64,000 bases of DNA from Clostridia bacterium UC5.1-1C12 (GTDB taxonomy: Bacteria > Bacillota_I > Bacilli_A > Erysipelotrichales > Erysipelotrichaceae): positions 1-64,000 of the forward strand of contig BBZX01000006.1 in assembly GCA_001305055.1 (NCBI GenBank), in the 5' to 3' direction. The notes under the pieces are model-generated. The model searched no databases. It worked only from the letters and a program-made list of their open reading frames with translations, and was not told where the DNA came from. The position numbers and the translations under genes were made by a program. Of the stretch, positions 1,858-37,259 are shown one piece after another; position 1 is the first letter of the stretch; each line of letters begins with the position of its first letter.

Positions 1858-1937
1858 GCACAAACAATAGACATAAAAGTGTCCTAAAATAAGTTAATTC
1901 CAATAGGGAAAGAGAAAGAGAGAGGAGATTTATTTAT
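1858..1937 (+). repeat. 80-bp conserved 5' block of S1
   Basis: The block begins GCACAAACAATAG and ends at the start codon; all ten array genes carry it at exactly 80 bp. It contains the dyad TAGACA-N6-TGTCCTA (offset 11-29), a purine-rich stretch (offset 47-70) and the Shine-Dalgarno GAGAGGAG 10 nt before ATG. The dyad spacer here is the AAAAGTG variant. Confidence 0.9.
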
Positions 1938-3701
1938 ATGAATAAATATTCAAGTAAGGCCGTTAAGACTGCTGCTACTGTTGGCATGTCTTTGGCTATG
2001 GTTTTGAGTAATGCTGCTCCTGTATTAGCTGTAGATTCAGCTAAAGGTGTAGTTGAAACTGTTATCGATCAAAAAGATAAAGTAGAAGATTTATTGGATT
2101 TATTAGGTGATGCTAAAAACATCGCTGCTGATGACGAAGTTGGCGGTGCAAAAGAATTATTCGGAGTTGCTGATGAAGTAGAATTCAAGGATATTTTCAC
2201 TCAAACAATTGATACAGTTGATGTTAAAACAATATTAGAAAATGCGTATAAATATGCGTCAGTTGCAGGTTATACTGATGAACAAAAAGACATTCTAGAA
2301 TACTTGGTTGGTACTAAGATTGATGGAACTGTTAAAACAGCGGTTGAACATGCAGCTGATTTATTAACAACTTTAACTGATTTAGAAGCATATACTGCAC
2401 CAGTTGATACTGATGATGTTAAATTATACAATAAAGTGAAAGATTTATTAGACTTTAAAGGAAATATTGCACTAAAAGGTGACGCTAATAAAGATAATGC
2501 AGATAATTTAGAAAAAATCGAAGATTTATTTGCTGATTTGAAATCTGATGTTGAAGACTATAAAGAAGATACAGTAGAAAGCGATGCTAAAAAGTTTGCA
2601 AAAGCATTAGCTGCAGAAAATGTAGCTGGTAAGACTGTTGAGGCTTTAGTCGATGACGAAGTGGCAATTCCTTATACTAGCCTTTCTACACTTAAAGCAT
2701 TCATCACAAAAGTTACTAAGGATTCTTATAAATTAGTAGATATTAAATATGGTGATGTTAAAAATGAAGGTGTAGTTGCTGATTACATCGAAGGATTAGA
2801 AACAATCGCTTCTGAGATGCAAGATGTGAAAGATCTTCTGAATGATACTAAGTCAGAAAAGAAGGAATTTGACAAGTTGGATGAAAAACTTAGCGATTTA
2901 GCTGATGTTATTAAAACAGATGCAAAAGATAGTGAATTAGATGCTATTGATGATGCTATTGCAGCTTTCCGTGCTAGTGACGTAAAAGCATTAAAAGAAT
3001 ATGTTGAAACAGTTGTGAATGAATTCTGGACAGTGACTACAGAGCAACGTACAAGCGGAAGTTATAGAGTTAAAGAAGTTGACGCTGGATTAGGTCGATA
3101 CTATGCATTTAAAACAGTTGCTGAAAATGATTTATACAAGTTAATGACAACTTTAGTTGATTCTGATGAAGAAGATACTTATTATGATCTTTTAGTAGCT
3201 GATGCAGCTTCAACTGATGAATTATTAAAAGCTGTTACTACAGATATTGAAGGAATCACTTTAAATTCCACAATGACTAACAAGCAGGCTGCTAAGATTG
3301 TTGCTGCTAAAAAAGCTTTATCAAAATTAGATGCAAATGGAAAAGCAATCTATAATTCTTTAAAGAGAAGTGAAAAAGCTGATGTAGATGCTAATCGTGA
3401 CTTGATTGAAGCATTATACATTAAAATGATTCTGAATGGTGATATTACTCAATCTGGCTGGGTAGACAAAGGCAACGGCGAATGGGATTACATCGCTGAA
3501 GACGGTTCTAGACCAACTAAATGGGTAGCTTCTGGTGCTAATTGGTACTATGTAAAGAACGGTACAATGTTACGTAACTCTTGGATCGCTTCTGATGCTC
3601 AGGGTACTAGATGGTACTATGTAGACGGTAACGGTGTGATGGTTTCTAATACTACTGTTAACGGTTATACATTCAACTCTTACGGAGTTTGGGTTAAATA
3701 G
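1938..3701 (+). CDS. Surface protein S1, type A tail, intact
   Basis: 587 residues, one of only two intact members of the ten-gene family. Residues 1-32 are a Sec signal peptide (MNKYSSKAVKTAATVGMS..., cleavage after VLA). The middle is acidic, Lys/Asp/Glu-rich and helical-looking, with no cysteine, and contains the type A signature SGSYRVKEV...GRYY. Residues about 507-587 hold three aromatic cell-wall-binding repeats of the choline-binding-like kind (WVASGANWYYVKNG, TRWYYVDGNG), ending in NSYGVWVK. The protein should be exported and held on the wall non-covalently; no LPXTG motif is present. It is closest to S9 and pairs tail to tail with S2. The ligand or host target is unknown. Confidence 0.88.
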   Translation: MNKYSSKAVKTAATVGMSLAMVLSNAAPVLAVDSAKGVVETVIDQKDKVEDLLDLLGDAKNIAADDEVGGAKELFGVADEVEFKDIFTQTIDTVDVKTILENAYKYASVAGYTDEQKDILEYLVGTKIDGTVKTAVEHAADLLTTLTDLEAYTAPVDTDDVKLYNKVKDLLDFKGNIALKGDANKDNADNLEKIEDLFADLKSDVEDYKEDTVESDAKKFAKALAAENVAGKTVEALVDDEVAIPYTSLSTLKAFITKVTKDSYKLVDIKYGDVKNEGVVADYIEGLETIASEMQDVKDLLNDTKSEKKEFDKLDEKLSDLADVIKTDAKDSELDAIDDAIAAFRASDVKALKEYVETVVNEFWTVTTEQRTSGSYRVKEVDAGLGRYYAFKTVAENDLYKLMTTLVDSDEEDTYYDLLVADAASTDELLKAVTTDIEGITLNSTMTNKQAAKIVAAKKALSKLDANGKAIYNSLKRSEKADVDANRDLIEALYIKMILNGDITQSGWVDKGNGEWDYIAEDGSRPTKWVASGANWYYVKNGTMLRNSWIASDAQGTRWYYVDGNGVMVSNTTVNGYTFNSYGVWVK

Positions 3702-3723
3702 TTAACTAAAACAAATAACACTT

Positions 3724-3788
3724 AAAGGAGATTCTTGATGGATCTCCTTTTTACATGTAAAAAAGAGATGCACATCTCTGTACATCTC
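3724..3788. terminator. Bidirectional terminator between S1 and S2
   Basis: GGAGAT...ATCTCC plus a T run ends S1. On the other strand GAGATG...CATCTC plus a T run ends S2. The two T runs meet in the perfect 16-bp palindrome TTTTTACATGTAAAAA (3748-3763). Confidence 0.8.
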
Positions 3789-3814
3789 AATTAAGTTATT
3801 AGATTGATTTACAA

Positions 3815-5698
3815 TTAACCGTTGTAAGAAGGGCTCATGTAAACGCCGTAAGAATTGATCCAGCAGCCATCTACAGATTGGTTAGTAACCATCTTACCAG
3901 CATTGTCTAAGTAGTACCAACGACCGCCGTCAGTAGCTAACCAAGTATTTCTCAGCATCTTACCGTCTTTGATCATATACCAGTCAGAACCAGAAGCAAC
4001 CCATTTGTAAGCAGCAGGAGTACCATCTTCATTATTGTAACCCCAGTTACCATTACCCATTGAATACCAACCAGCAACATTTGTTACGCCTAAGTTGTCA
4101 AATGCTTCACGTAAGTTAGTAATTTTAGTTTCAATTCTTCTTAAGTCTTTCTTTTGTTCTTTAGTTAAATTAGCTGCGTACTTTCCGTCTTTCATTTCAT
4201 AATACGCATCTTCTGCAGCTTCTAAAGTTTTCTTGTCAGTTGTTTTAATATTTGCAGGTGTGATTTTTTCTATATCTGTAGTTACAGCATCCCAAGCTTC
4301 AACAAAATCAGCTAAATGATTCAGAACAACATCGATACCAAATGTACCTTCTTTTGTATCAACTAATTTTAATAAATAGTCATCAGTAGCACCAAAGTCT
4401 AAACCTACAGTTGAAGACCCTGTGAAACCATCAACCCAACCAGATTTATCTACATAATAATTTCCGACTTTTTTAGTTTCAAAATTTAAATACTTCGTCT
4501 AATACATCTTCTTTTAGTGCTTTTAATACATCATACTGATCAGCAGTTAATGTTTTAGCTAATTCTGTAGCTTTTTTCTTATCTGTATCAGACTTTGCAT
4601 CTGGTGTAAATCCCTTAAATGTTGTTCTTAAAGTTTCCTTTTCACCATCATTAGCTCTTTCGACTTTGGTTGAAGTAAATGCTTTGTAAGAGTCAGACTT
4701 TAATACATCTTTCAAATCAGTAATATTACCTAATAAGTCATTATATTGATCAATGATATCTTGTACAGATGATTCATTTTTTACACGATAGTAATTTGGG
4801 GCATCCTTGATTGCCTCGATACGGGCTTTTATTGCAGTTTTATTTGCTCTATCAACTACAAATAATTTCTCTGCAGCTAAACCTAACTCAGCTTTAAATT
4901 TTGTTTCATCAGCTGTGGAGAATTTTAAAGCATCTCCTTTATCACCAGTTAAGTCTTGCTCTAAAACAGTAGTCCAAGCTGCCACAAAGACATCTGTTAC
5001 TTTTCATCAGATACAACGTAATCAGCTGTTCTATCTTCTAAAGCGTTATACACTTTATCAAATCGATTTGTCAAAACATCATCTAAACGATCATAATCAC
5101 CGTCTTCAATCCATTTTTGCATCTTTTCAAATGCTTTAACTGCGTCAGAAGCTACAGCAGGTTTATCTTTTAAATTAGCTTTAGACCAACTTGTATCACC
5201 ACTTGCATCAAGCTGTTTCATGTAGTAATTAATCAAGCCACCAGTCTCTGCCAGTGTTTTCATTTCATCAGCATCACCTGTTTTAGTAAAGTAGTCAGTT
5301 GAGAACATACCTTTAGAATCTTCAGTTTCTAATTGATCAGCAGCAATTTTATTAGTTACAGTTATCCATTTTCTGAAAGTAGTATAATCGGATCCAGTTA
5401 AGTATCTTTCAAGACCTTCCTTGTTTAAAATGATTGCAGAAATAATTTTAGTATTTTTTACGGAATCAATTGTTGCTTCACTCTCAACATTTAACGCATC
5501 CAAACCAATTTCATTGATCGCTTCAGATAAATCAAAAAAGATTGTTTTACATTTTGCATCTGTATTTGCTTGATCTGTACAAACAGCTGTTAAATCTGAA
5601 CCTGCAGCTAACACAGGAGCAACATTGCTCAAAACCATAGCCAAAGACATACCAACGGTAGCAGCAGTCTTAACAGCCTTACTTGAATATTTATTCAT
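3815..5698 (-). CDS. Surface protein S2, type B tail (two frameshifts)
   Basis: About 627 residues when repaired. It has the shared signal peptide (cleavage after VLA). A Cys pair follows soon after (VCTDQANTDAKC), then a helical body with the type B signature ETKKVGNYYVDKS. The tail GWYSMGNGNWGYNN...GCWINSYGVYMSPSYNG is wall-binding. Frame breaks: one base missing in the A run at 5001-5004 (within SDE-VTDVFVAAW) and one extra at 4481-4484. Both are homopolymer changes and the frame between them is open. The body is very like that of S5, which lies on the opposite strand in another pair. It is read convergently with S1. Confidence 0.82.
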
Positions 5699-5778
5699 AT
5701 AAATAAATCTCCTCTCTCTTTCTCTTTCCCTATTGGAATTAACTTATTTTAGGACACTCTTATGTCTATTGTTTGTGC
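5699..5778 (-). repeat. 80-bp conserved 5' block of S2
   Basis: Same 80-bp block as at the other nine genes, in inverted orientation relative to the S1 block. The dyad spacer variant is AAGAGTG. Confidence 0.9.
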
Positions 5779-5834
5779 ATCCTTCAAATGCATTTCAAAT
5801 AAGTAACTGTTCATAGACTTTTCATATTTGTTTC

Positions 5835-5846: not shown

Positions 5847-5951
5847 TTTATATAATCATTACTTTTGATGGTCATAAAATAATATAATGGTGTACTTAAT
5901 GATGATTTTATATATTATTCGTGATTAATAATATTATTTTATTCATATTAA

Positions 5952-5982
5952 TTGCATTAATATCTATTAAATGTGGTATAAT
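5952..5982 (+). promoter_or_regulatory. Candidate promoter of ATPase-2
   Basis: TTGCAT (5952-5957) and TATAAT (5977-5982) with a long 19-bp spacer. GAGGTGG (5992-5998) is the ribosome binding site for ATG 6005. Confidence 0.5.
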
Positions 5983-6004
5983 GTATTTAAAGAGGTGGTG
6001 TATT

Positions 6005-7597: not shown

Positions 7598-9996
7598 ATG
7601 AATAAATATTCAAGTAAGGCCGTTAAGACTGCTGCTACCGTTGGTATGTCTTTGGCTATGGTTTTGAGTGCTGTACCTGCTGTTGGCAATGTTACTATTG
7701 CTCAAGCAGCTGTGGTTTGTACTACTAAAAAAGTTATACAAATGGTACAATTTATGCTTCTAAAACAATTGAAGGAGCAAAAACTATTGCAGAGGTAAAA
7801 GCAGAAGTAAAAAACACACTAGCTTTACTGCCTAATACAAAAGAGGTTCAAGTAGGTTCTAGTACGGTAGAATATTATCTTGGTTATCATTATGATGGAA
7901 ATGCAACTATTTACAAAGTATCAGAAGGAACAACGAATGTAGATAGTGCCACAGGCAAAGTAACTTATGGTTATTATGCAAGTGATTCCGCAAATATTGT
8001 AGGTTATCCAGCAATTGTCAAAGATGCTCCGTTAGCAGGATCTGAAAAAACTATAGAATCACGTGATAAAACTAAAATTGGTGCCGATATTAATGCCTAT
8101 GTAGTAAGTATTATTGGTGGCAGTGGCTGGTCTGGTGATGCTGCGGTAACTGGCACTGTAAATATTACTACGCAAAATGGAGCTGCTGATACTGGAGATG
8201 TAGAAGCTGCATACAGTATTGATGGAGCTGCCGACGTTAAATCAAAAAATCCTGTAGGTGATACAAATCTTGACAGTGCGGAAAATGTAGTTGTAAAAAT
8301 CATAGCTACTGCATCATTTGATGATTATTCAAATTGTGCTGAACAGGGTACAGGTTTAGGAATCACAGACAGATACACAGCAAAGAACGTATACAACGAA
8401 ATCGTATCTGCATTTGATAAAGCTTCTTTGACTTTCGAAAATGTTAAGCCGGGCGATGAAGTTGAATTCACTAAGACAAATACTGCTGCTTTAGGTAAAA
8501 TGGCGATCTTATCTTCAGATAAAAAATTAAATGCTGATTTTAAAGCAGTTCTTAAAGAATTAGCTCGCTACTTAGACAATACTACAGATGAAGGTAAAGC
8601 CGTTGAACGTCTATTGGATATGGATACTGCTATGAACGACATGTTCAAAGCTGACGGAAACTTAGCTAAAGCTGAAAAGTATGATGAGGATACTGAATTC
8701 AAAACAACTTCTGCTTATGCAACTGCAGCCGATCTGTTAGAAGACTTCAATGATTTCGATACTTATTTAACGAACCTGAAGGATGCTGACTATGACAGAG
8801 TTACTGAAGCTAAATCTGTATTAGAAGACTTAGTGAATAATTATGTTGCTGAAAACGATGGAGACTTATTAGATACTTATCTGACTAACCTGGATAAATT
8901 CTATGAAGCTTTCGTTGATAAGAATGGTGATGCCGGTATCACTAAAGCTCAGGTCGATACTGCAATCAAGAACATCAAAAACGGTACTACTTTTAAAGAT
9001 GTAAAGGGGAAAGATGTAACGATCGAAAAATCTGATTATACTACATTCAAAGAAAATTCTGGTGTAGAAGAATACATGACCAAGTTTGAAGATATGTATG
9101 ATGCTATCGAAGAAGTGAAAGATGCAGTAGCTAAATCAAATGAAGCATATAAAGACTTGATCAAAGGAGATACTTCAGTTAAGGATTTCCTGACTAACAA
9201 AGACAGTGATAGAAAATTGACAGCTGGCAAAGAATTCAGTTCTATCAAATCTAATTTGACTGTTGAAGAATATAAGATCTTAAAAGCATACAAAGAAGAA
9301 GTCTTAGATGCTGTATTGACGCTTGAAACAAAACAAGTAGGCAACAGCTATGTCAACAAATCAGAAAAATCAATCTATGCAACAACAGCACAATTGAATA
9401 CTGTATTAAACAATATCGGAAATGGTACTGATTTAGACAAAGGTGTATTCACTAAGTTAGATAAAGAAAAAGGTGAATTCAACTGGGATAAATTAGTAGC
9501 TCACATGGAAAAAGTAGAAGCTAGCTTAGAAGCAGTAACTACTGCCATCGAGAAATTAGATTCAATCTCATTAACAGCCAATGATCGTGCCGCAATCTTG
9601 GCAGCAGATGATGCAGTATACTTCCTGACAGATGATGGTGCAGATAACTTAACTTCAGCTCAAGCAAGAACTGTAAAAAACGCAGATCGTAAAGTAGCTG
9701 AATTGATGGAAGCATACCGTATGAAGTTTGGTTCAATCAATGCAGAAGTAAATGGCTGGGTAAACAAAGGCAACGGTGACTGGGCATACTATGAAAATGG
9801 TAACGCAGTAACTAAATGGGTAGCTTCAGGTTCTGACTGGTATTATGTAAGAGGAGGCGTTATGTTACGTAACTCTTGGATTGCCTCAGATTCACAAGGA
9901 ACTAAGTGGTACTATGTAGATGATGCAGGTAAAATGGTATCAAATACAACAGTTAACGGTTATACATTCAACTCATATGGAGTATGGGTTAAATAA
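7598..9996 (+). CDS. Surface protein S3, mosaic with type A tail (one frameshift)
   Basis: The longest family member, about 800 residues when repaired. The signal peptide has the longer ending AVPAVGN...AQA shared with S6. One base is missing in the A6 run at 7727-7732; after it the frame is open to the end. Residues about 45-270 are a Gly/Thr/Val-rich stretch with two Cys and no counterpart in the other nine proteins. The following body resembles type B proteins (EEYKILKAYKEEVLDAV...ETKQVGNSYVNKS). The last 80 residues are a type A tail (GYTFNSYGVWVK) with its own variant GNGDWAYYENGN. It therefore looks like a chimera. It pairs tail to tail with S4. Confidence 0.82.
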
Positions 9997-10142: not shown

Positions 10143-12002
10143 TTAACCGTTGTAAGAAGGGCTCATGTAAACGCCGTAAGAATTGATCCAGCAGCCATCG
10201 ACTGATTGGTTAGAAACCATCTTACCAGCATTGTCTAAGTAGTACCAACGACCGCCGTCAGTAGCCAACCAAGTATTTCTCAGCATCTTACCGTCTTTGA
10301 TCATATACCAATCAGAACCAGAAGCAACCCATTTGTAAGCAGCTGGAGTACCGTCTTCATTGTTGTAACCCCAATCACCGTTACCCATTGAATACCAACC
10401 AGCAACATTCGTTACACCTAAGTTATCGAATGCTTCACGTAAATTTGTGATCTTAGTATCAGCTTGGCGAGCAGTTCTCTTTTGTGCAGAAGTTAAGTTG
10501 TCAGCATAATCACCATCAACTAATTCATAGATTGCATCTTCAGCAGCTTCTAAAGCAGATTTATCTGATGCTTTGATATTAGCAGGTGTTAATTTAGCAA
10601 TATCAGTTGTAACAGCATCTAAAGCTTTAACTACCTTATCCATATGTTCTGCAACTAAATCATATCCGAATAATCCTTCTTCATTGTCAACTAGTGTGAA
10701 TAGATATTCTGGGAATGCATTTTTGAATGTATTTCTCTGTGAAGTTGTTGAAGTTGAAGTGTAATCAGACTTATCTACATAATAATTGCCAACTTTTCTA
10801 GTTTCCATTGTGTAGATAGAATCCATTACTTCTTCTTTAGCGGCTTTTAAGATTTCCCATTGTTCAGAATTCAAGATATTAGCTAACGCTTCAGCCTTTT
10901 CTTTAGCTGTTCCAGTAGTGATTGCTTTTACGAAATCTCTTACTGTTACTTTGTTATCTTTTTTAACATTTGAAATCTTTGTTTTAATATATTCGTTATA
11001 TTCATCAGATTTTAATACATCAGAATTAGCTCCGATATTATCAATCAGCTCTTGATAAGCATCTAAGATAGCGATTACTGCATCTTCATCTTCGAAACGA
11101 TCATAATCATCATGATCAGTAATCAGTTTCATACGATTTTTAAGTTGTGTTTTGTTATTTAATGCGATCGCGTCCAATTTATTATCTGAACTGCCAATGA
11201 TTTCTTTGATTGTTTTTGCGCCAGCATCTTTAGAAACTGTTTTTGTCAAATCTGTTTTCTTTTTCTTTCAAGTCATTTTGTAAAATAGCATCATATGCTA
11301 ATACAATTTGATAAGTCAGCATCTGCAGTTACACCAAGATAATCATTGATGTTTGATTTTAAAGTGTTATAAGTATCTGCTACAGCACCAGCTAAATCAT
11401 TTGTATAATCATCACCGCTGATACCTAAGTACTTACCATAATCATCTTTATAGTCTTTCAGAGTTTCCAATGCATCTTTTGCATCGCTGTAGTTATCCTT
11501 TGTAACTGTAGAAAAATCTTCATCTGCACCCTCTTCGCCATTTACATTTGCTACTAATTTAGCTAAATCACTGCCATCTTTAACATCTTTTGCAGCAACA
11601 GCACCAGCACCAGCATAAGCTTCGATACCTTCAACTACATTAGTCCATGTTGTGATATTAGCTTTTTCTGTATAACCAGCATCTCCACCTTTAGCAAATG
11701 CGTCTAATTCAGCTTTGTAATCAGCAATTACTTCTAAGATATTAACTTTCTTTCCAGCTTTATTCAAAGCCTTCATATCATTATCTAAAGTAACAGTAGT
11801 AAATTTAGCACCATCTAATTGGCTTAAAAATTTCTAAATATACTTTTGCACCACAATCAGCTAAACTTGCTTCATCTACACCTTTGCAGATACCTGTTGT
11901 GATATCATCAGCGAATACAGGAGCGGCATTGCTCAAAACCATAGCCAAAGACATGCCAACAGTAGCAGCAGTCTTAACGGCCTTACTTGAATATTTATTC
12001 AT
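10143..12002 (-). CDS. Surface protein S4, type B tail (three frameshifts)
   Basis: About 620 residues when repaired. It has the shared signal peptide (NAAPVFA), then a Cys pair (GICKGVDEASLADC), an acidic helical body with ETRKVGNYYVDKS, and a type B wall-binding tail ending in MSPSYNG. Three single-base insertions are inferred, at 11826-11830, about 11305 and about 11254-11265. Repairing each restores family-like sequence (LEILSQLDGAKF, DLSNVLAYDAILQ and KETDLTKT). The C-terminal half is very close to S10. It is convergent with S3, and its 5' end faces the polysaccharide operon. Confidence 0.82.
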
Positions 12003-12241: not shown

Positions 12242-13320
12242 TCAAGCATTAATTAATGTCATCCACTGATTCAAGATATAATCAAGACCAAATTCTCTAA
12301 CTGATAAATTGCAATTATCACTGAATTTAACTCTTAGCTTTTCATCTTTAATCAGTTGTGATATTTTGTTAGCATAACCACATTCATCATAACAAGGTAT
12401 CAAAAATCCATTTTCGCAATCTCTGATAATTTCTGATGGACCACAATCGCAATCAAAACTTATCATAGGGAGATGATGAGCATATGCTTCAAGTAATACA
12501 AGGGGCATTCCTTCATATCGTGAAGTTAACGCGAAAATAGAATAATTAGAATAGACTTCATCGATTGCTTTACATTTTCCCTTTAAATTGATGAAACTAT
12601 TTAACCTTTCCTTAATGATTCTTTCTTTAAGTTTTTCTATTTCAAGACCATCTCCATATATGTCCCATGACCAATCTTCACATTTACTTGCGATTAATTT
12701 AGCAATATTAATCAGTTTATCATATCCTTTTTGGTATTCAATACGTCCTATTGTCAGTATTTTCTTTTGCTGTATATCAGAATAAACATCATTTGCAATT
12801 AATAAAGGATTATATATCTGTGTTATCTTACTTTTACAATCATACTTTCGGATATAATTTGACTGATCACGTTTTGTTAAAACCACTAAGTTGTCAACAT
12901 ATTTCAAATAATATCTACGACCCAGATCTGACAATGGTGAAAAAGGATGTGTGCAATTAAAATGCTCCCATAATATTAATTTGAATTTGTCTTGATTGTT
13001 TTTTTTATTTTGGCTAAGTATGTTCTTAAATCACCACTAACTACAACCTGATAATGATTCGATAATATTTCTTTTTCAAGAGTATCAATTATATATTTGG
13101 CATGCATTCTAACATTAATCGATTTATTAAATAAATATTTAATTCTAATATTTGATTTTTCTGATAGTTTAAAAAATTCATTTCCTATATTACCAAATAA
13201 AGAAAGTAATGTAATATCATATTCTTGATGTTTAGCTAATTCATTAACTAATATAGAATTTACCTTTTCCATTCCCCCTGAATGATTAAAGTTGAATACT
13301 ATAAAACATAATTTTTTCAT
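12242..13320 (-). CDS. Glycosyltransferase family 4 (one frameshift)
   Basis: About 360 residues when repaired. The N-terminus (MKKLCFIVFNFNHSGGMEKV) is the typical nucleotide-sugar transferase start with the GGxE-type motif. The C-terminal half has RIEYQKGYDKLI and FALTSRYEGMPLVLLEA, the GT-B donor-binding region. The frame breaks at the T8 run 12999-13006 (A8 on the coding strand); after it DKFKLILWEHFN continues the family sequence. It is the last gene of the polysaccharide operon, presumably adding a sugar to the lipid-linked repeat unit on the cytoplasmic face. Donor and acceptor cannot be told. Confidence 0.85.
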
Positions 13321-13322
13321 TG

Positions 13323-14846
13323 TTAAGCTCCTTTATATCTGCCAATTTGCGCTTTTATAATCTTGACAAGAACTAACATTTGAGCATTTTTTCTATAAAA
13401 TACTAATTCTAAAAGTAAAAATGAAGTAATAACCATACACATATTCAACATGAACGATACTATACCATTTTGTAATGCTAAAATCTGATTTAATAGGCAG
13501 ATTGCGACAATCTGTAAGAATGAAATAATAATGTATTTTGCCTCTTTGAAAATGTAATCAGATAATTTTAAATTTAAACCCGATTTCACAACCATATACA
13601 CAATAAGAAAATATGAAATTAAGTTACTAACTGCTGTTCCGACAAAAACACCAAGCAATCCATAATTGGCAGTTAAACCTACTGAAACAACTAAATTAAT
13701 CACTACCTGCAATAAACGAATCGGCAATTCTTGTTTAAACAAGCCTTTTGTCACAATAATATTTGATAGCGGTGCTGTTACTAATCCATAATAATTATTA
13801 AAAATGACTACTAATACAACAGTAAAATTCATCACATAGTTTTCACCAATCCACATATGAATAAAGGCTGAATCAAGCAGATGGTCGCCACCGCATAAAA
13901 TGTGCTGACCTGAACAGAAATAAAATTATAAAGGTTAAAAATCTGATGTATCTTTGTACTATCATTTTCAGCAAATAAATCACCCAGTGAAGCAACAACA
14001 CCATTCAGTAAACTCCAGAGCAACGCCGAAGCCGATGACAAAATTAAAAAATAATTACTATAAACACCCAGTGCCGCAGTGCCTACAAATTTAGAAATGA
14101 TTATGCTGTCAGTTCCATTAATACCAACATTAGCAATTTTTGATAAACTTAGAAATTTTATGTCATTAAAAATAGTCTGCCGCTCGGTCTCTTTTAATTT
14201 CGACGGATATGTATAAAACTCAGAATATTCTTTATGCGCTTTTTTCATTAATCTAAAATTAAAGAATAATGTGATTATAATCTCAATTCCTAAGTACCAA
14301 AGATAACTAGGATGGATTAAAAGAATGAACACTTGCAGCGTCTTGGTAAAAATTTTAGCCAAAAAGTCAAACATTAAGACTTTATAATTTTGTTGGTGTG
14401 CATAGTAAACAGTTCGAACATCGGTGAAAAAATAGCTGGAAAATGTAAGAAAAGCATAAAATACAAATACTTTTTGCATATAAGGTATACTGTTAACACT
14501 GCCTTTGACAAACAACCCGATAAAAGGTGTAATACAAAATGCAAGTATAAATAAAAAGAACTCCAAGCTGGCAAAAAATTTTCTTAAAATATTGAAGAAT
14601 AGCTGCCACTTTTTGGCTTTCATTATTTCTTATTGGTGCATATAGCGAGAAGTTTAAAGCAGTACCCAATCCCAAATCTACAATTGATAAAATACTTAAG
14701 ATGTTTGTAAATAAAGCATCAAACCCTAAATATTCAGAACCTAATATTCTTATGAATACCGTTCTTGTAATGAATGCAAATATTAAGATAATGAATTGTG
14801 AAACAACTGCGAAGCCAGAATTCAGTAATGAATTAATTGTTCTCAT
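13323..14846 (-). CDS. Polysaccharide flippase, Wzx/MATE-like (two frameshifts)
   Basis: About 508 residues when repaired, the usual size for Wzx. It begins MRTINSLLNSGFAVVSQF, with RTVFIRILGSEYLGFDALFTNILSILSIVDLGLG typical of the oligosaccharide translocase family, and has about 12-14 hydrophobic segments. Breaks lie near 14540 (a short T run) and near 13850 (before MWIGENYVM). ATG overlaps the stop of the upstream gene (ATGA). It should move the lipid-linked repeat unit across the membrane to the polymerase encoded by the first gene of the operon. Confidence 0.85.
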
Positions 14847-16704: not shown

Positions 16705-16732
16705 CTTTATTCTCCAATCGAATCACTCGGAC

Positions 16733-17747: not shown

Positions 17748-17764
17748 CCAGCCACCTCCAATCG

Positions 17765-19734: not shown

Positions 19735-19735
19735 A

Positions 19736-20323: not shown

Positions 20324-20367
20324 GATTACCCTCCTCTAAAAATAAATGGGAACTGCGTCCCCATGTT

Positions 20368-24016: not shown

Positions 24017-25973
24017 CTATTTAACCCAAACGCCGTAAGAGTTGAATGTATAGCCGTTAACAGTTGTGTTAGAAACCATCACACCGTTATCATCAACATA
24101 ATACCATCTAGTACCCTGAGCATCAGAAGCGATCCAAGAGTTACGTAACATTGTACCATTCTTTACATAATACCAATTAGCACCAGAAGCGATCCATTTA
24201 GTTGGTCTAGAACCATCTTCAGCGATGTAATCCCAATCGCCGTTGCCTTTGTCTACCCAGCCAGATTGAGTGACTGTACCGTTAAGGATTAGTTTTAAGT
24301 ATAAAGTTTCAATTAATTCTTGATTAGCTAATACGGCTTTTTTTTCTTTTGAAGTTAAAGCATTAGCATATTCAGATTCGATTTTACCGTTTTTATCAAC
24401 TAAATGATTCAATGCTTTTTTAGCCTTAATAATTTTGTTGGCTTGTGCTGATGTTAAAGTAGAATTTAATGTTAATCCTTCGATATCATCAGTTACAGCT
24501 TTTAGTAATTCTTCAACTGTAGTTACAGCATTAATTACTGTATCGTAGTAAGTTTCTTCACTTTCTTCGTTGTCAATAACCGTAGTTAATAAGTATTCTA
24601 ATCCTTTATCTGTTGCTTTTTCAAATAAACCGAATACATCTTTAGTTTCAACATAACGGCCATAATCAGCATTTTCTAAACGTACAACATATTTACCACT
24701 GTTTAACTGTTTTGGAGTTAATGTATAGAATTCTCCGATGAAATCTTCAACAAAGTTCTTTAAAGCAGTTGCATCAGCTTCTCTGAATGCATTTAATGCA
24801 GCATTAAGAGTAGTTTCTTTTTCTTCTGTTTTTTCAGTATCTTTGCCATCATCTGTTAAATAAGCGTTAGCAGCATCAGCTAGTTTATTAACTTTGGAAG
24901 CAAGATCTTTTTTGTATGATTTAACATCATCATTTGTCGATTTAAGAAGAGCTTTTACTTCTTTTCATTTCAGAAACAATAGTTTCTAAACCTTCGATAT
25001 AGTTAGCTACTTCTTCGGAATCTTTTACATCATCGTAATCAGCAATATCAGCTAATTTAGTAACATCGTCATTTTTGATGTTCTTTAATACTTTTTCTAC
25101 TGTTGCTAGCTTAGTATATGAAATAGCAGCTCCCTTTTCAACAGCATCATAAACTGTTACATCTCCAACAAGTGGTGTGTCTTCTAATTCTTTAACATAT
25201 TCCTTGTTGTATACATCTTCATTTTCGCCTTTGTAATCTTCTACTTCTGCTCTAAAATCATTTATTAAATCTTTATCAGCATCAGTTTCTACAACAGCGT
25301 TTAGATATTTTTCATTATCTTTGATGATTTTATATGCTTCTTGTGCATCATCTTTATTAGTATCTTTAGTGTATCCATTTTTAGCTATAGATTTAATAAT
25401 ATCTTCTCCAGTTTTAGTAAAAGTACCAGCAGCAAAATATTTGCCTAATTTTGTAGCCCCAGTAGCTGTAGCATAACCTTTAATAAATTTGGCAAATGCA
25501 ATGACATCTTCATCAATATCAGCATCATCCATTGCATAAGAATTTGCAACTAAATACTGAGCTAATTCTTCTAAAGTAGTAGCATTAGCAATTCCATCTT
25601 TACCACCGGCTAATGGATTTGTCCCATCAGATGTTACAGAAACAGTGACACCAGTTAATCCAGATAACATTGTTCCATCAGTAATATTTACAAAAATTTC
25701 TTCACCAGTAGTTTTTGAAATTTCAATTTTAACAGCTTCTCCATCCGCTAATTTACTTTCACCATATAAATCAGCATAGTCTGTGAATTCACCTAAAACA
25801 GCTGCTAACATCTTATGTGCTTGAGTCGCAGTAGTTCTAGCACTTACAGGTGTTGTGATTGCAGCTTGTGCAACAACTGCATTACCTACAGCAGGTACAG
25901 CACTCAAAACCATAGCCAAAGACATACCAACGGTAGCAGCAGTCTTAACGGCCTTACTTGAATATTTATTCAT
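24017..25973 (-). CDS. Surface protein S6, type A tail (one frameshift)
   Basis: About 652 residues when repaired. The signal peptide has the long AVPAVGN...AQA ending shared with S3. Residues about 35-130 form a Gly/Thr-rich stretch with no cysteine (KIEISKTTGEEIFVNI), then an acidic helical body, and the tail GWVDKGNGDWDYIAEDG...NSYGVWVK. The break is one extra base in the T4 run at 24962-24965 (A4 on the coding strand); the frame is then open to the end. In this pair the type A gene lies on the minus strand, the reverse of pairs 1, 2 and 5. Confidence 0.85.
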
Positions 25974-27650: not shown

Positions 27651-29532
27651 ATGAATAAATATTCAAGTAAGGCCGTTAAGACTGCTGCTACCGTTGGTAT
27701 GTCTTTGGCTATGGTTTTGAGCAATGTTGCTCCTGTATTTGCGGCTGTTAATACGCCTGATCCAGCAACTGCTACATGTGATGCTTCAGCACAAACAAAT
27801 TGTTTCGATGCATATTATGAAATTAATAAAGCATTGGGTACTAATTCATTCTCAGAAGTAAGCATGGACTCAATTGCTGATGCAGATTTAGTAAAATTAG
27901 GTTCTGCAAAATTCAACATTATGAGAGCTGCAGTTTATTATACTGGTGGTTTTGAGCTAGAAGCAAAAAAGCAGGCTAATCAAGGAACATATGCTGATAA
28001 ATTAAATGAATGGATGAAAGTAACATCACCTATTGTTGAAATGTTTGGTAAAGCTTATATAACTTCTACTAACTTTGTAGATGGTAATAACGCTGATGTT
28101 ACGGATGTAAAAATCGCTGATTTAACAGATGGGAATTTAAGCACTTGGAATGCAAACTTAACTACAGGTGATTGGACAGCAGCAAATCTGGCAACTCCTG
28201 CTAATCAGAAAACTGCAATCAAAGCATTAACAGATATGGATAAATTCGAAGATTCTACTTCTTATGAAGTTTTATCAGAGGATATGATGAGTGTATTCGA
28301 TACAATAAAATCTACTTTAAAAACCGCTGTTAAGCCATATACACAGTCTGACGACAAAGTGACTGCTGAATTTGTTGAAGCTTGGAATAAAGTATTAGAT
28401 TATGACTTAGGTCAAAAAACAGGTGATGCTTTATCAGCTGAGGAAGTAATAGCTGCAGGATTATCAGCTAATATTACAAAAGCTGTTGATTTATCTAAAA
28501 AGCAATCAATCCAAAACAGAATCAATCAAATTAAAGATGCTGATAATTATTCTAGAGTTAAAAATGATTCTGCTGTCATTGAAATTATCGATGCTTATCA
28601 AGAATTAATCGACAATCTTGGTGATACAAAAGATCTCTTAAAGTCTGATTCATATACTGATTATGTGGACACAAAGACAGAAGATGAAGATGTAACAGTT
28701 AAAGATTTCTTATTCGGCAACAATTTTGGTTCAGATGGTAAATCAGCAAATACAAATACTGGTACTTTAGATGAAGCAAAAGAAGTAGCTAAAGTATTAG
28801 ATACTGAACAATTAGAAATCTTAAAGGCATTAAAAGAAGATGTATTAGATATTGCTTATAACTTTGAAACTAAAAAAGTTGGTAATTACTATTTAGATAA
28901 GGGAGATTTTAATGCAGTAATTACTACTACACAAGAAAAAGAATTAACAAACAATCTACCGGCATTTGTTTATAAAGTAGTTGATACCAAAAAAGGCACT
29001 TTTGGAATTGATTATGTGATTGATCATGTAGAAGCAGCTAAAGCTTCTCTAGAAGCTGCTACAACTGACATTGCTAAGCTTACACCAGCTAATATCAAAC
29101 TACTGACAAAGCATTGTTAGAAGCAGCAGAAGATGCTATTTATGAATTAACTGCAGCAAAGGGAAAATATGTAGGAAACTTAACAAGTGACCAAGCAAAA
29201 GAAGTACGTAAAGCTGAAACTAAGATTACAAATTTACGTGAAGCATTTGACAACTTAGGTGTTACTAATGTAGCTGGATGGTATGACATGGGTAATGGTA
29301 ACTGGGGTTACAACAATGAAGACGGAACTCCAGCTGCTTATAAATGGGTTGCTTCTGGTTCTGACTGGTATATGATCAAAGACGGTAAGATGCTGAGAAA
29401 TACTTGGTTAGCTACTGACGGCGGTCGTTGGTACTACTTAGACAATGCTGGTAAGATGGTTACTAACCAATCTGTAGATGGCTGCTGGATCAATTCTTAC
29501 GGCGTTACATGAGCCCTTCTTACAACGGTTAA
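27651..29532 (+). CDS. Surface protein S7, type B tail (two frameshifts)
   Basis: About 627 residues when repaired. Signal peptide ending APVFA, Cys pair ATCDASAQTNC, helical body with ETKKVGNYYLDKGDF, type B tail. One A is missing at 29097-29099 (NIK-TTDKALLEAAEDA). One T is missing at 29505-29506 in the last ten codons, so the true end is the TAA at 29530-29532 after MSPSYNG rather than the early TGA. Convergent with S8. Confidence 0.84.
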
Positions 29533-29646: not shown

Positions 29647-31505
29647 CTATTTAACCCAAACTCCGTAAGAGTTGAATGTATAGCCGTTAACAGTTGTGTT
29701 AGAAACCATAACACCAGCATCATCTACATAGTACCATCTAGTACCCTGAGCATCAGAAGCGATCCAAGAGTTACGTAACATTGTACCGTTCTTTACATAG
29801 TACCAGTTAGCACCTGAAGCGATCCATTTAGTTGGTCTAGAACCGTCTTCAGCGATGTAATCCCATTCGCCGTTGCCTTTGTCTACCCAACCGGTTGATG
29901 TAACATCACCAGCCCAAATTAATTTCTTATAAAGCATATCTACTAATTCTTCATTTTCTTTAACTGTGCGTTTTTCTTTAGCAGTTAATGAATAAGGATT
30001 AGTACCATTGTAATCTAATTCAGTGTATGCTTTTTTTGCTTTGATAATTTTAGCAGCTTGAGCATCAGTTAAGTTAGTGCCTAATGTAATACCTTCGATA
30101 TCAGTTGTAACAGCTTTAATTAATGAATCTTTTGTTGAAGCTTCATTAGCCAATAATTGATCATAATAACTTCTTCTTCATCTTTAACTACTGTAGTCAG
30201 CATCAGATAAGTTAAATTTTCATCAAACTCAGCATCAATATCACTAACATAACGTCCGTAAGTAGAATTTTCAAATGTTAATGAGTAATTACCGCTTGAA
30301 AGTTTTCTAGATTTAACAGTTACGAATTCATTCATAACATCTTCAACATAGTTTTGCACTGCTTCCAAATTTGCAGCTGTAAATTTATTGATAGCTTTTT
30401 CAATAGCTGTTTCCTTATCATCAATATCGGCTTGTGTAGCACTTGAAGGTAAAGCTTTGCGTGCCTTAACAGCATCAGCTAAATCTTCAACCTTACTAGC
30501 AACCTTATCATAAGCTTTTTTATCAGCATTAGTACTCTTCAATAAATCTGCTGTTTCCTTCATTTCATCTACGATATCTTGAAGACCATTCATGTAATCA
30601 GCTACTTCATCAGCATCTTTTACATTATCATATTCATCCGCCTTAATAGTAGAAATTTTATCAGCTTTTACATTCTTAATAAAGTTTTCAACAGTCTTCA
30701 CATATTTATAGCCTAAATCTGCCTCTTTATTCACTAAATCACGAACAGTTTTACTATTAGCTACTACAGCTTCTTCTAATTGTTTTACATATTCATTCAA
30801 GAATTTGCTTTCGTTTGATTCCTTATAGTCTGCTACTGCATCTTTAAAATCAGCAAAATAATCATCATATGCTGCTTTAGCATCTGCATAATTAGTTTCT
30901 TTTTTTGCATTGTCTAAATAGTCTTTCAAGATGTTTAATTTATCTAATAGGTCTTTAGCATCATCATAATCCGTTTCATTTTTAATAGTTGGGATGTATT
31001 TTGCATGGTCTGTAGCAAGTTGTTTAAATTCCGTAATTGCATTAGCTACTAAGTCATTAAAAGTAGTCCATGCCCCATCATATTTCCTAACTAAATGTTT
31101 TGCTGTTTCTAAAGCAAACTCATCAGCATCATCGTCGCATAATACTAGTTGAGCTAAAGCATCAGCTACAGTTACATTAGTAAGTCCTTTTACATCCATG
31201 TCTAAAATCGCATCTAATGTAGCTTTATCTGTTACTTCTACTTCTAACAATTTGTTTAATTCTGTTAAATCAGCTTTAACGATTTCGGCTCCTTTTTCAA
31301 CATCATAAACATCTTTTCCCATCTTTGCTAAAGCATCAATTATTGCATTTGCTAATTTCACACCTGCTTTAGAAACAGTAGTATCACAATATGTTACTGA
31401 TGGTGCTGTTGCAGCAAGTACCGGAGCGACATTGCTCAAAACCATAGCCAAAGACATGCCAACAGTAGCAGCAGTCTTAACGGCCTTACTTGAATATTTA
31501 TTCAT
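29647..31505 (-). CDS. Surface protein S8, type A tail (one frameshift)
   Basis: About 620 residues when repaired. Signal peptide ending APVLA. Two isolated Cys (VTYCDTTV and LVLCDDDAD), unlike the other type A proteins. Acidic helical body with SGNYSLTFENSTYGRYV, then a type A tail ending NSYGVWVK. One base is missing at 30168-30169 (EEEVYYDQLLANEAS). In this pair, too, type A is on the minus strand. Confidence 0.85.
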
Positions 31506-31858: not shown

Positions 31859-31884
31859 AAGCATATAAAGAAAGGAAATGGCTT

Positions 31885-33314: not shown

Positions 33315-33380
33315 TATATTATATGGCTATAATAAATATCTCCTCTATTCAAAGGAAATACAATTCTATTTAGGAAGCAT

Positions 33381-33460
33381 GCACAAACAATAGACATAAG
33401 AATGTCCTAAAATAAGTTAATTCCAATAGGGAAAGAGAAAGAGAGAGGAGATTTATTTAT
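33381..33460 (+). repeat. 80-bp conserved 5' block of S9
   Basis: Same block, with the unique dyad spacer variant AAGAATG. Confidence 0.9.
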
Positions 33461-35274
33461 ATGAATAAATATTCAAGTAAGGCCGTTAAGACTGCTGCTA
33501 CCGTTGGTATGTCTTTGGCTATGGTTTTAAGTGCTGCTCCGGTAATGCCTATCATGGCAAGTGATGATGCAGTGGTTGTAGCTGTTGATTTAAAACTGGA
33601 AGATGCAATTGAGAAAAAGGATGACGTTGAAGAACTACTTAATTTATTAGGTGATGCGAAGAACATACATGTTTCTGATACAGTTGGTGGTTCTGGTGAA
33701 TACTTCGTGACTGATCAAAAAAAAGATATATTATTTGACAATTTATTCACTCAAGAAAAAGATGGTGTAACTGCTGAAGATTTACTGAAAAATGCTTATA
33801 AATATGCATCAGTTGCAGGCTATACAACTGAACAAACTGAAATCTTAAAATATTTAGTAGGAACTAAAATCGATGGTGTTAATGGTGGAAAGGCTCAAAA
33901 TGCGGTTGCACATGCTTATGCGTTAGCTAATGATGTCTTAAATGATTTAGAAGCTTATAATGGCACTGTAACTCCAGCTGATGTTGTTTTATACAATAAA
34001 GTAAAAGCATTATTAGCATTTAAAGGTAATGTTGACGTATCGGACAAATTAGACAAAATCGAAGATTTGTTTGCTGATTTAGCGGCAGATGTTGAAGATT
34101 ACAAAGAAGATAATGTTGGTAGTGATGCTAAAAAGTTTGCTAAAGCATTAGCAGGAGAAAAAGTAGCCGGTAAAAGTGTAGCTGAATTAGTTGATGATGA
34201 AGCAGCTCTTGCTTATACGAATCTTTCAACAATTAATGCTTTCATCGCTAAAATCACTAAAGATTCTTATAAATTAGATGAAATCAAATACGGTGATGTA
34301 AAAAATGAAGATGTAGTTGCTGATTACATTGAAGGATTAGAAACTATCGCATCTGAAATGCAGGATGTGAAAGATTTAATCAACGATACTAAAACTGAAA
34401 AGAAAGCTTTCGATAAATTAAATGGTACTGGTGGTAAGTTAGATGTTCTAGTGACAGCTATCAATGCAACAGTAGGAGAAGGTAAGGATTACGTAACTGA
34501 AGATTTAAAACAAGATGCTATTGATGATGCAGTTGCTGCTTTCCGTACAGCTGATATTACTGCATTGAAAGACTATGTTGATGCATTTGTTAATGAATTC
34601 TGGACAGTGACTACTGAACAACGTACTAGTGGCAGCTACAGAGTGAAAGAAGTAAATGCAGGTTTAGGTCGCTATTATACTTTTGATCAAGCTGCCGGTG
34701 CTAAATTACACACATTAATGACTACATTAGTAGATTCTGATGAAGAAGAAACATATTATGATTTATTAATTGCTGATGCTGCTTCAGTTGACGAATTATT
34801 AAAAGCAGTAACTACTGATATTGAAGGCATCACGATGAATTCAACATTAACTGACAAACAAGCCGCAAAGATCATTGCTGCTAAAAAGCTTTATCAAAAT
34901 TAGATGCAAATGGAAAAGCAATCTATACTTCTTTAAAGAGAAGTGAAAAAGCTGATGTTGATGCAAACCGCGAATTAATCGAAGCACTTTATTTCAAATT
35001 AATTCTAAATGGTAATGTAACAGCTTCAGGTTGGGTAGACAAAGGCAACGGCGATTGGGATTACATCGCTGAAGATGGTTCTAGACCAACTAAATGGATC
35101 GCTTCTGGTGCTAATTGGTATTATGTAAAGAACGGTACAATGTTACGTAACTCTTGGATCGCTTCTGATGCTCAGGGTACTAGATGGTACTATGTTGATG
35201 ATAACGGCGTAATGGTTTCTAACACAACAGTTAACGGTTATACATTCAATTCTTACGGAGTTTGGGTTAAATAG
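33461..35274 (+). CDS. Surface protein S9, type A tail (one frameshift)
   Basis: About 604 residues when repaired; the closest relative of S1 along the body (EELLNLLGDAKNI, KNAYKYASVAGYTTEQTEIL, SGSYRVKEVNAGLGRYY). Signal peptide ends PVMPIMA; no cysteine follows. The type A tail ends NSYGVWVK. One A is missing in the run 34883-34887 (AAKK-ALSKLDANGKAIY). Convergent with S10. Confidence 0.86.
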
Positions 35275-35298
35275 TTAACACAACTTATTAACACTTAA

Positions 35299-35360
35299 GG
35301 GAGATTCTTAATCGAATCTCTCTTTTGCATGCAAAAGAGATGCACATCTCTGTACATCTC
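35299..35360. terminator. Bidirectional terminator between S9 and S10
   Basis: GAGATTC (35301-35307) with GAATCTC (35314-35320) ends S9. GAGATG...CATCTC (35337-35360) ends S10 on the minus strand. The centre (35319-35340) is a perfect 22-bp palindrome around TTTTGCATGCAAAA. Confidence 0.85.
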
Positions 35361-35382
35361 AGTTTCATACATAGTGTTTAGA

Positions 35383-37179
35383 TTAACCGTTGTAAGAAGG
35401 GCTCATGTAAACGCCGTAAGAATTGATCCAGCAGCCGTCTACTGATTGGTTAGAAACCATCTTACCAGCATTGTCTAAGTAGTACCAGCGACCACCGTCA
35501 GTAGCCAACCAAGTATTTCTCAGCATCTTACCGTCTTTGATCATATACCAATCAGAACCAGAAGCAACCCATTTGTAAGCAGCAGGAGTACCGTCTTCAT
35601 TGTTGTAACCCCAGTTACCGTTACCCATGTCATACCATCCGGCAACATTAGTAGTACCTAAATTATCGAATGCTTCACGCAGGTTAGTAACTTTAGTTTC
35701 TGCTTTACGAACTTCTTTAGCTTGTTTAGAAGTTAAATTCTTAACATATTTCCCGCCTTCAGTTAATTCATAGATAGCATCTTCAGCAGCTTCTAATGTA
35801 GCTTTATCTGAAGCTTTGATATTTGCAGGAGTAAGTTTTTCGATATCTTTAGTAACTGCATCTAAAGCATCAGCAACTTTTTCCATGTGAGCTTCTAAAT
35901 AATCATAACCAAATTCACCAGTTTCAGTGTCAACTACTTTTAATAAGAATCCCGGAATATTGTTCATAACAACATTCTTTTGTGTTCCTGAAACATAAGA
36001 GTTAAACTCTGACTTATCTCTATAATAGTTACCGATCTTTGTAGTTTCAAATTTCCAAACTGAATCAAGAACTTCTTCTTTTAAGTCTTTTAAGATAATC
36101 CATTGTTCACTATCTAATACTTTTGCTACCGCTTTGGCTTCTTCAGTTGCTGTAGTTGAACCGTCTTTTACGAAATCACCATCAACATTTACTTTACCTT
36201 TAGCTAATGCTGAAATGAATGATTTAACTGTCTTATCTTCATCATCAGTTTTAGTTTTGTTATATGTTTTGTAAGAGTCAGTTGTAGTAATGTCAGAGAT
36301 ATTTCCAATGCTATCAATGATTTCCTGATAAGCATCGATTAATGAAATAACTAAATCTTCATCCTTGAACTGATCATAGTCATCAGCGTCTTTAATCTTA
36401 TTGATTCTTGCTTTTACTGCAGATTTACTTGATAAATTTACTTTAGCTACATCCTCGGCATAACCTGTGATTGTTTGTTCAGCAGCTGTTAATTTAGTAG
36501 CCTTGCCATCTAAATCGTTTTCTAATACTTTATTGAAAGCATCATAAAAGTTAGCTAGTTTTTCATCAAAATCCTCTTCATCAATATTAAGAGCATCTTC
36601 TAATTTGTATTGTGCTTGGTTCACTAATGTTAAGAAGTCACTGCCAATAACTTCGCCAGCATCTTTCTTTGCATCTTTAACTTTAGTTAAATTAGCTTTT
36701 GTTAAATTTGTACCATCAGTATCCTCTAATACTGTTTTAACTATACCTGCACCGAATTCAGTATCACTAACTGCAGTAGTAGCATAATCAGCGCCAAATA
36801 ATACAACCATTGCATCATGGAATTTTACCATTGCTGTAATAGTTTTGTATTCATCTGAAGAATAAGACAATGTGTTTTTGAAAGCTTTTAGAGAATCTAT
36901 ATTCTCAGCGATTGCTTCGTAAATTGATACTTTACTTCCATCATTATTTTTTACTTCTAAACCGTTATCCATATTTGATTCGGCAAATGGAGTACCATCT
37001 AATTTTTCTAATACAGCATTCAATACTGTTCTACCACATGTTGTATCTTCGATACTAGTACCACACATATCAGTAGTTACACTAGCAGCCATAACTGGAG
37101 CAGCAGCACTCAAAACCATAGCCAAAGACATACCAACGGTAGCAGCAGTCTTAACGGCCTTACTTGAATATTTATTCAT
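35383..37179 (-). CDS. Surface protein S10, type B tail, intact
   Basis: 598 residues and uninterrupted. Signal peptide ends AAPVMA. A Cys pair follows (DMCGTSIEDTTC), then an acidic helical body with EQWIILKDLKEEVLDSVWKFETTKIGNYYRDKS, and from residue about 514 the type B wall-binding repeats ending MSPSYNG. It is the rightmost array gene and one of two intact ones. Unlike the others it has a consensus-like promoter 100-130 bp upstream instead of the GGTATATGCC element. Confidence 0.88.
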   Translation of the reverse strand: MNKYSSKAVKTAATVGMSLAMVLSAAAPVMAASVTTDMCGTSIEDTTCGRTVLNAVLEKLDGTPFAESNMDNGLEVKNNDGSKVSIYEAIAENIDSLKAFKNTLSYSSDEYKTITAMVKFHDAMVVLFGADYATTAVSDTEFGAGIVKTVLEDTDGTNLTKANLTKVKDAKKDAGEVIGSDFLTLVNQAQYKLEDALNIDEEDFDEKLANFYDAFNKVLENDLDGKATKLTAAEQTITGYAEDVAKVNLSSKSAVKARINKIKDADDYDQFKDEDLVISLIDAYQEIIDSIGNISDITTTDSYKTYNKTKTDDEDKTVKSFISALAKGKVNVDGDFVKDGSTTATEEAKAVAKVLDSEQWIILKDLKEEVLDSVWKFETTKIGNYYRDKSEFNSYVSGTQKNVVMNNIPGFLLKVVDTETGEFGYDYLEAHMEKVADALDAVTKDIEKLTPANIKASDKATLEAAEDAIYELTEGGKYVKNLTSKQAKEVRKAETKVTNLREAFDNLGTTNVAGWYDMGNGNWGYNNEDGTPAAYKWVASGSDWYMIKDGKMLRNTWLATDGGRWYYLDNAGKMVSNQSVDGCWINSYGVYMSPSYNG

Positions 37180-37259
37180 ATAAATAAATCTCCTCTCTCT
37201 TTCTCTTTCCCTATTGGAATTAACTTATTTTAGGACACTTTTATGTCTATTGTTTGTGC
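37180..37259 (-). repeat. 80-bp conserved 5' block of S10
   Basis: Last copy of the block and right end of the array. The sequence beyond it (ATAATCG) is unlike the other copies. Dyad spacer variant AAAAGTG. Confidence 0.9.

Follow-up and report, generated by a model that had tools for sequence, protein, structure and literature searches.

How does a bacterium use ten related surface-protein genes that all begin alike? The question is raised by the first 64,000 nucleotides (nt) of contig BBZX01000006.1 of Clostridia bacterium UC5.1-1C12, a stretch that we refer to as the window and in which ten such genes form an array of convergent pairs. We propose that this locus consists of one expression site and nine silent genes, among which a secreted, wall-bound surface protein would be switched, and we consider this reading likely. 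As judged from the sequence, the core of the case is that ten copies appear to share one promoter, in two genera, beside the same gene.

Ten gene copies and one recognisable promoter

The ten genes lie in five tail-to-tail pairs (Table 1), as the initial annotation had described them. A scan of both strands for the signal-peptide start (up to 6 substitutions in 40 nt) returned ten copies. In 10/10 genes a common block starts 81 nt 5' of the ATG and runs about 57 nt into the coding part; over these 138 nt of block and signal codons the mean pairwise identity is 98.6% (range 97.1-100, 45 pairs), and the likeness among the copies ends abruptly on both sides. The annotation had reported this common 5' block with near-identical signal-peptide codons, and the alignment bears it out; its limits of 1858 and 37259 agree to within one base with the outer block edges (1857 and 37260). 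It had also put the inverted repeats bounding each pair at roughly 175 bp, close to the 178-213 nt (88-97% identity) that we find between blocks among the longest 25 of 48 inverted repeats, which include the two ends of pairs 1, 3 and 4 (182-195 nt, 94-97%). One tail of each pair ends in ...SYGVYMSPSYNG (type A) and the other in ...SYGVWVK (type B), the order being B(+)A(-) in pairs 1, 2 and 5 and A(+)B(-) in pairs 3 and 4. All five pairs are thus mixed, as claimed before. Random assignment of five A and five B tails to the pairs would give this result with p = 0.13 (32/252, calculated by hand), and by the window alone the rule is not striking; together with the four mixed pairs out of four in the type strain described below, p falls to about 0.03.

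The encoded proteins begin with a signal-peptide-like segment, followed by a body of about 470 residues, mostly helical, and by choline-binding-type repeats; they are predicted to be secreted and wall-bound; they may serve as a major coat protein. A profile of the A proteins compared with PDB matched choline-binding-type wall repeats in the tail (best E 2e-10). The Pfam family Choline_bind_2 scored 22.8 bits in gene 5m, below its cut-off of 27; Pfam choline-binding matches rose above the cut-off in the two genes scanned from a second genus (G113, see below) and were absent from the output for three further window genes or gene fragments. With NCBIfam (two window genes and five relatives), the B-tail matches stayed far below the models' whole-protein cut-offs. 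Across Pfam (two whole and two part genes) and NCBIfam, only choline- or glucan-binding tail repeats were found, apart from one weak stray match in a body. Two predicted structures (mean predicted local distance difference test scores of 79.2 and 78.6) gave mostly confident helical models for the bodies; neither matched a solved fold at E 0.001, and the best weak matches were choline-binding tails.

The feature that we regard as decisive, and that is absent from the annotation, is a single recognisable promoter among the ten. Sigma-70 hexamers were scored in the 70 nt 5' of the block plus 6 nt, with a maximum of 13. Gene 5m, the last of the array, reaches 11 with an extended -10 element, and the other nine window genes score 6 to 8; only 2 of 2000 random window stretches reach 11, the commonest score being 7. 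Thus 5m alone among the ten appears to have a sigma-70-type promoter at its block edge, and the block would be a transcribed leader that begins roughly 12 bases downstream of where transcription should start. In G113, which also has ten block-bearing genes, the gene beside the helicase scores 11/13 and the other nine 4 to 8, so that none of the 18 remaining genes in the two genomes (nine in each) exceeds 8. When the ten window flanks were aligned with the ten from G113, 5m against the helicase-side gene scored 97 and the other 99 combinations 14 to 30, and 30 nt at the promoter, TTCATGAATGATATAATAGTAGCAAGGATA, are identical between the two. The upstream neighbour is the same DEAD-box helicase gene in the window, the type strain and G113, and the helicase-promoter region is kept at 96% in the type strain.

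Terminator-like hairpins at most 300 nt upstream were considered as a mark of silent genes; they occur at 6/9 promoterless copies in the window and 7/9 in G113 (random stretches, 114/400 and 122/400), and we rejected them as a mark since both proposed expression sites have one too. Between the convergent genes, a hairpin like that of pair 5 is also present in pairs 1, 2 and 4, with none listed in pair 3.

Of the nine window copies that lack a promoter, seven carry a near-palindrome, GKTATATRCC, 158-159 nt 5' of the ATG, and an eighth carries it at 148 nt; no good match was found 5' of 2m or 5m. The window holds 17 matches at 12 places (some read on both strands) against 3.9 expected, and 8 of the 12 places are flanks of promoterless copies. 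Near the ten G113 genes there is no match within one mismatch of the two main forms on the one strand scanned. The palindrome may be a repressor site, a recombination site or part of another kind of promoter.

Table 1. Positions of the array genes and of neighbouring features in the window (the ATG is the first listed position of a plus-strand array gene and the last of a minus-strand one)
Feature	Position	Strand	Remarks
Pair 1	1938-5698		
Gene 1p	1938..3701	+	type B, 587 aa, intact; proposed silent
Gene 1m	3815..5698	-	type A tail, frame broken; proposed silent
Pair 2	7598-12002		
Gene 2p	7598..9996	+	type B tail (second subtype), frame broken; proposed silent
Gene 2m	10143..12002	-	type A tail, frame broken; type-strain counterpart (contig C17) 89% over body; proposed silent
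Pair 3	22064-25973		
Gene 3p	22064..23909	+	type A tail, frame broken; proposed silent
Gene 3m	24017..25973	-	type B tail, frame broken; proposed silent
Pair 4	27651-31505		
Gene 4p	27651..29532	+	type A tail, frame broken; proposed silent
Gene 4m	29647..31505	-	type B tail, frame broken; proposed silent
Pair 5	33461-37179		
Gene 5p	33461..35274	+	type B tail, frame broken; proposed silent
Gene 5m	35383..37179	-	type A, 598 aa, intact; occupies proposed expression site
Hairpin and T run, pair 5	35337..35360	-	between the convergent genes
5' block of 5m	37180..37260	-	81 nt leader; proposed expression site
Promoter P2 (predicted)	37280..37307	-	TTGATT-16-TATAAT, TG before -10; 19 nt to block; also at matching place in G113
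Promoter-like P1	37561..37588	-	TTCACT-16-TATAAT with TG; surroundings alike in G113
DEAD-box helicase with DbpA domain	37725..39146	-	upstream neighbour of proposed expression site
Near-palindrome GGTATATGCC(T)	1779..1789	+	159 nt 5' of 1p ATG
Same palindrome	1m 5846-5836; 2p 7440; 3p 21906; 3m 26131-26121; 4p 27493; 4m 31664-31654		
Same palindrome, one mismatch	5p 33303		
Polysaccharide gene island	12242..21651	-	glycosyltransferases, Polysacc_synt_2, Bac_transf, Wzy_C; between pairs 2 and 3
AAA_14/DUF4143 genes	416-1549, 5921-7300, 31885-32823		
Fic gene	26322-27242		
Selfish/toxin-like genes L080, L081, L082, L083	between or beside G113 genes		in G113
Two ParB-like genes and mnmG	60268-62627 and 42705-44474		close to array
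T-box leader	53130-53330	-	before methionyl-tRNA synthetase gene
PTS EIIC gene	55547-56936		split over two open reading frames

The locus in the type strain and in a second genus

Relatives of 5m at 95-97% include proteins named Dielma fastidiosa, and the 26.7 kb to the right of the array are 93.8% identical to contig C8 of the D. fastidiosa type strain JC13 (G001), which identifies the window by its sequence as D. fastidiosa or something very close. In a collection with one genome per species, array loci were found only on four short contigs of this type strain (C15-C18), each of which runs from just past one signal peptide to just past another and carries one A and one B gene tail to tail (4/4). 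Two of the type-strain A genes are interrupted by runs of N, beyond which the A tails resume. Contig C8 begins at the 5m block edge (window 37262), and the 9896-nt C13, which covers the polysaccharide island, has both its ends at a block edge. Since C8, C13 and the pair contigs all end at the block, the type-strain draft evidently lost the repeat.

Although the DNA flanking the array is 94-96% alike in the two strains, the bodies of the surface proteins seem to turn over fast. Only one of eight type-strain bodies (T17_A, like 2m) has a window counterpart of at least 85% over most of its length; the two share 89% DNA identity over the body, and the B partner of T17_A is unlike 2p. A/B partners therefore appear to have changed between strains, though the draft could be chimaeric across the near-identical tails. 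The window's left flank and the stretch between pairs 3 and 4 had no match in the type strain, and the stretch between pairs 1 and 2 had short matches only. The A query gave 106 matches (five from the window itself), of which 48 have an A tail, 42 a B tail and 16 neither, so the gene pool is large.

The reading frame is broken in eight of the ten window genes, only 1p and 5m being whole. However, outside the array, the 26.7 kb aligned to C8 contain 18 one-base gaps in the window against 4 in C8, so the breaks are probably for the most part assembly errors. At least one further gene, that of a phosphotransferase system (PTS) EIIC component, is also split there, and none of the eight type-strain genes has an early stop. 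A contig that is deletion-rich relative to the type strain and carries long repeats could also be mis-assembled in its arrangement. Against this stand an independent draft with four A/B pairs that breaks at the same block, and the like block logic of G113, and we think it very improbable that the array is such an artefact.

Protein searches found relatives in 2/145 and 2/266 genomes of the family, both times the type strain and G113. G113 represents another genus, since the search within the genus returned the type strain alone. A pattern of the leader occurs ten times in G113 and is absent from the 271 remaining genomes of the family, but the type-strain draft, from which the repeats are missing, also scores 0, so empty drafts mean little. 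Among viral contigs there was no exact copy of the 39-nt block pattern. The ten G113 genes lie on two contigs, on one strand, and none is convergent. Six of them stand between mnmG and the DbpA helicase gene; in the window, mnmG and the helicase gene are both on the same side of the array, helicase first. Despite this difference in order, the helicase gene adjoins the putative expression site in both genera. A phage-type integrase is encoded about 5 kb from the G113 array.

A tree of 20 proteins (two of the ten window genes, eight type-strain genes, two of them cut short, and the ten G113 genes) fell into two fully supported groups; because of long branches, against which the program cautioned, the finer joins and the place of one G113 gene are unsure. 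One group contains the Dielma A genes together with two from G113 and the type-strain gene T16_B, whose tail is of type B although its full sequence falls in the A clade; the rest of the Dielma B genes and eight G113 genes make up the second. The split between A and B thus appears older than the genera. The proposed expression site is occupied by an A gene in the window and by a B-clade gene in G113. Some database proteins, which we judged by eye to belong to a third lineage, have A-like and B-like bodies with nearly one common tail. In three predicted proteins (P0046, P0053 and P0098) that differ in signal peptide and tail, the reading frame extends across the leader (...ILIPIGKEKEREEIYF before MNKYS), a hint that this leader is present in another lineage as well.

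These comparisons bear on the strict A+B pairing that the annotation had emphasised. The rule holds in the species, where 9/9 recovered pairs (five in the window, four in the type strain) are mixed, but it is not required by the family, and strict pairing is accordingly a feature of this species. As a unit needed for function the pair fails in G113, whose ten unpaired genes on one strand comprise two of the A clade and eight of the B clade; as a fixed unit of inheritance it seems to be contradicted by the type-strain pair in which a 2m-like A gene stands beside a B gene unlike 2p. The same evidence weighs on a second explanation of the array, namely that all ten genes are transcribed from promoters of their own, that A and B act together, for example in a two-protein layer, and that the array arose by plain duplication of a convergent pair. 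The nine mixed pairs, the conserved tails and the like hairpin between the genes in 4/5 pairs would fit it, and the palindrome at 8/9 promoterless genes could mark a promoter that we did not recognise. However, 9/10 flanks have no sigma-70-type promoter above background, the G113 genes are unpaired and unequal in clade, and partners seem to differ between strains, so that we hold this explanation to be improbable.

Proposed routes to the promoter

For the proposed expression site with its nine silent genes, switching would most likely proceed by inversion between the common blocks. Homologous, RecA-type recombination between inverted blocks would flip the intervening DNA and place another gene behind the fixed promoter, which would stay while the genes move. 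A plus-strand copy would arrive by one inversion with the 5m block, and a minus-strand copy would first have its own pair flipped and then undergo a second inversion; a search over arrangements likewise returned one inversion for plus-strand and two for minus-strand copies. The number of arrangements follows n!(n-1)!2^(2n-1) for n pairs, a formula fitted to counts for 2, 3 and 4 pairs, and extrapolates to about 1.5 million for five. No DNA would be lost by inversion; exchange between copies in the same direction, if it occurs, would delete DNA. Near-identity over 140 to 200 nt should suffice for RecA recombination. The annotation had taken the inverted common 5' end as a pointer to rearrangement, in our judgement rightly. 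We also tried to sort the flanks into left and right classes that would show pairs 3 and 4 to have been flipped, and dropped this because the similarities were near noise.

Block copies of the window are 98.6% identical to one another and those of G113 92.6%, whereas identity between the two genera is 54.5%; such near-identity within each species shows that recombination homogenises the copies. There are five variable block sites in the window, and site -61 occurs in all four combinations with +41 and +47, which would need exchange or repeated mutation.

Gene conversion between copies would probably also diversify the bodies, and it would be the likelier route in G113, where all copies face one way. 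It could indeed be the main route, with genetic material passing one way from silent genes into a single expression site between the common block and the tails, as in the pilE/pilS system, and the inverted layout being of little account. The same single promoter in G113 with all copies on one strand, the B-tailed T16_B within the A clade, and the pair of a 2m-like A gene with a B gene unlike 2p all speak for this. What it leaves unexplained are the strictly convergent pairs in two orientations and the end of the block at leader and signal peptide rather than in the body; we take it as a serious possibility, with a chance somewhat below even. As with the recombinase considered next, it overlaps our own explanation, so the likelihoods that we assign are not exclusive of one another.

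Instead of RecA, a site-specific recombinase might shuffle the pairs in the manner of a shufflon or of vsa, with the palindrome, in the form GGTATATRCC, or the block edge as its target. The nearly constant distance of the palindrome from the ATG (158-159 nt in seven promoterless copies, 148 nt in one more) and its 17 matches against 3.9 expected would suit such an enzyme. Yet there is no good palindrome match at the expression site, where a crossover would be needed, or at 2m, and none near the ten G113 genes within the scope of that scan. The 40 window proteins scanned, of which four are products of the surface genes, included no recombinase; the window has 76 listed open reading frames of at least 100 amino acids, and the enzyme could be encoded by a short frame outside the 40 or elsewhere in the genome. 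We regard this route as unlikely.

Several points weigh against the proposal of one expression site switched by inversion. The palindrome is the weightiest objection to calling nine genes silent: the promoter scan was limited to sigma-70-type sites, and the palindrome could belong to another kind. Since G113 has the single promoter although none of its copies is inverted, inversion can be neither the sole nor the ancestral route. Between the two genera the helicase-side regions are orthologous, and part of their likeness is expected; the weight rests on the conservation of the apparent promoter motif itself and on no other copy in either species seeming to have one. The lack of a recombinase among the 40 scanned proteins also counts here, and broken frames, if they were real decay, would shrink the usable store of genes.

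In its fullest form, the proposal describes a lossless whole-gene shufflon, in which ten full-length coat genes in alternately oriented A/B pairs surround one promoter that keeps its place close to a chromosome-origin gene cluster. Every gene would get there in one or two inversions through ordinary homologous recombination at the leader, the surface would switch between two ancient protein classes, and the pairing would be an innovation of this lineage, whose ancestor would have resembled G113 in being unpaired and driven by conversion. Taken as a whole, this scheme seems to us evenly poised between right and wrong.

Related systems, neighbouring genes and meaning

The annotation knew of no described system built in this way, which overlooks systems that are close in logic, the nearest of which appear by analogy to be slpA/slpB and sap. 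In Lactobacillus acidophilus, the S-layer genes slpA and slpB face each other and share their 5' end in inverted orientation. According to the portions available of two papers, they lie on one 6-kb segment and are interchanged by inversion between an active and a silent state, slpA standing at an expression site with two promoters and slpB having none (PMC6015585, PMC6176008). Like that segment, the window has surface genes in convergent pairs whose 5' ends are inverted repeats, and a promoter predicted in silico (sigma-70-type sites) at one end only, outside the segment. Unlike it, the window has five pairs in an array instead of one, two types of tail, and tails of the choline-binding type rather than lactobacillar S-layer domains; we saw no protein kinship.

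The sap locus of Campylobacter fetus combines one promoter, conserved 5' ends and inversion, its invertible segment carrying the promoter and secretion genes; we know of no strict convergent A/B pairs there. In the part of the source available, eight sapA copies are described in two complete genomes, with two types (sapA and sapB) and recombinants between them, and a glycosylation region beside the locus (PMC4943207). The window resembles sap in its several homologs with a near-identical 5' region and one apparent promoter. It differs in that this promoter lies outside the array, that the proteins have a signal-peptide-like start, and that no protein kinship was seen; the type I secretion genes sapCDEF were not found among the 40 window proteins scanned, which do not represent every open reading frame.

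More distant parallels exist. The vpma and mba families, whose products are lipoproteins of wall-less cells, are variable surface families of Mycoplasma and Ureaplasma switched by rearrangement, which for mba is DNA inversion as far as the partial sources go. By the same sources vpma uses the recombinase Xer1, of which no equivalent was found among the window proteins scanned. Neisseria pilE/pilS works by gene conversion between one expression locus and many silent copies with shared ends, whereas in the window each copy is a whole gene that has its own leader and signal peptide and belongs to an inverted pair. With the pneumococcal choline-binding proteins PspA and PspC the window proteins share C-terminal choline-binding repeats (NCBIfam below cut-offs for the B tail, the PDB profile for the A tail), but their bodies have no family match and no fold match at E 0.001. 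A literature search on surface switching in Dielma and the Erysipelotrich bacteria found nothing on this locus among the papers listed, although a 2023 survey of programmed inversions may list it.

Among the neighbouring genes (Table 1), the polysaccharide island is bounded by inverted blocks and could thus invert too; the C. fetus sap locus likewise lies near a glycosylation region in the available part of the source (PMC4943207). In both genera, the genes that stand among the array copies frequently belong to a small set of selfish or toxin-like types, namely AAA_14-DUF4143, ATPase_2-DUF234, Fic, HipA and Schlafen-AlbA. Because two ParB-like genes and mnmG are nearby, the array is probably near the chromosome origin. 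The T-box leader is the sole Rfam match at gathering scores, and no tRNA was found in the window.

The layout of the locus would explain why the type-strain draft breaks at these genes, and the state of the locus is invisible in that draft. If our reading is true, a gut bacterium that has received little study would possess a store for antigenic variation, of a kind best known from pathogens, and two genera would have retained the same promoter for it. With the nested inverted layout one could then ask, in a natural setting, if gene order evolves towards reversible switching.

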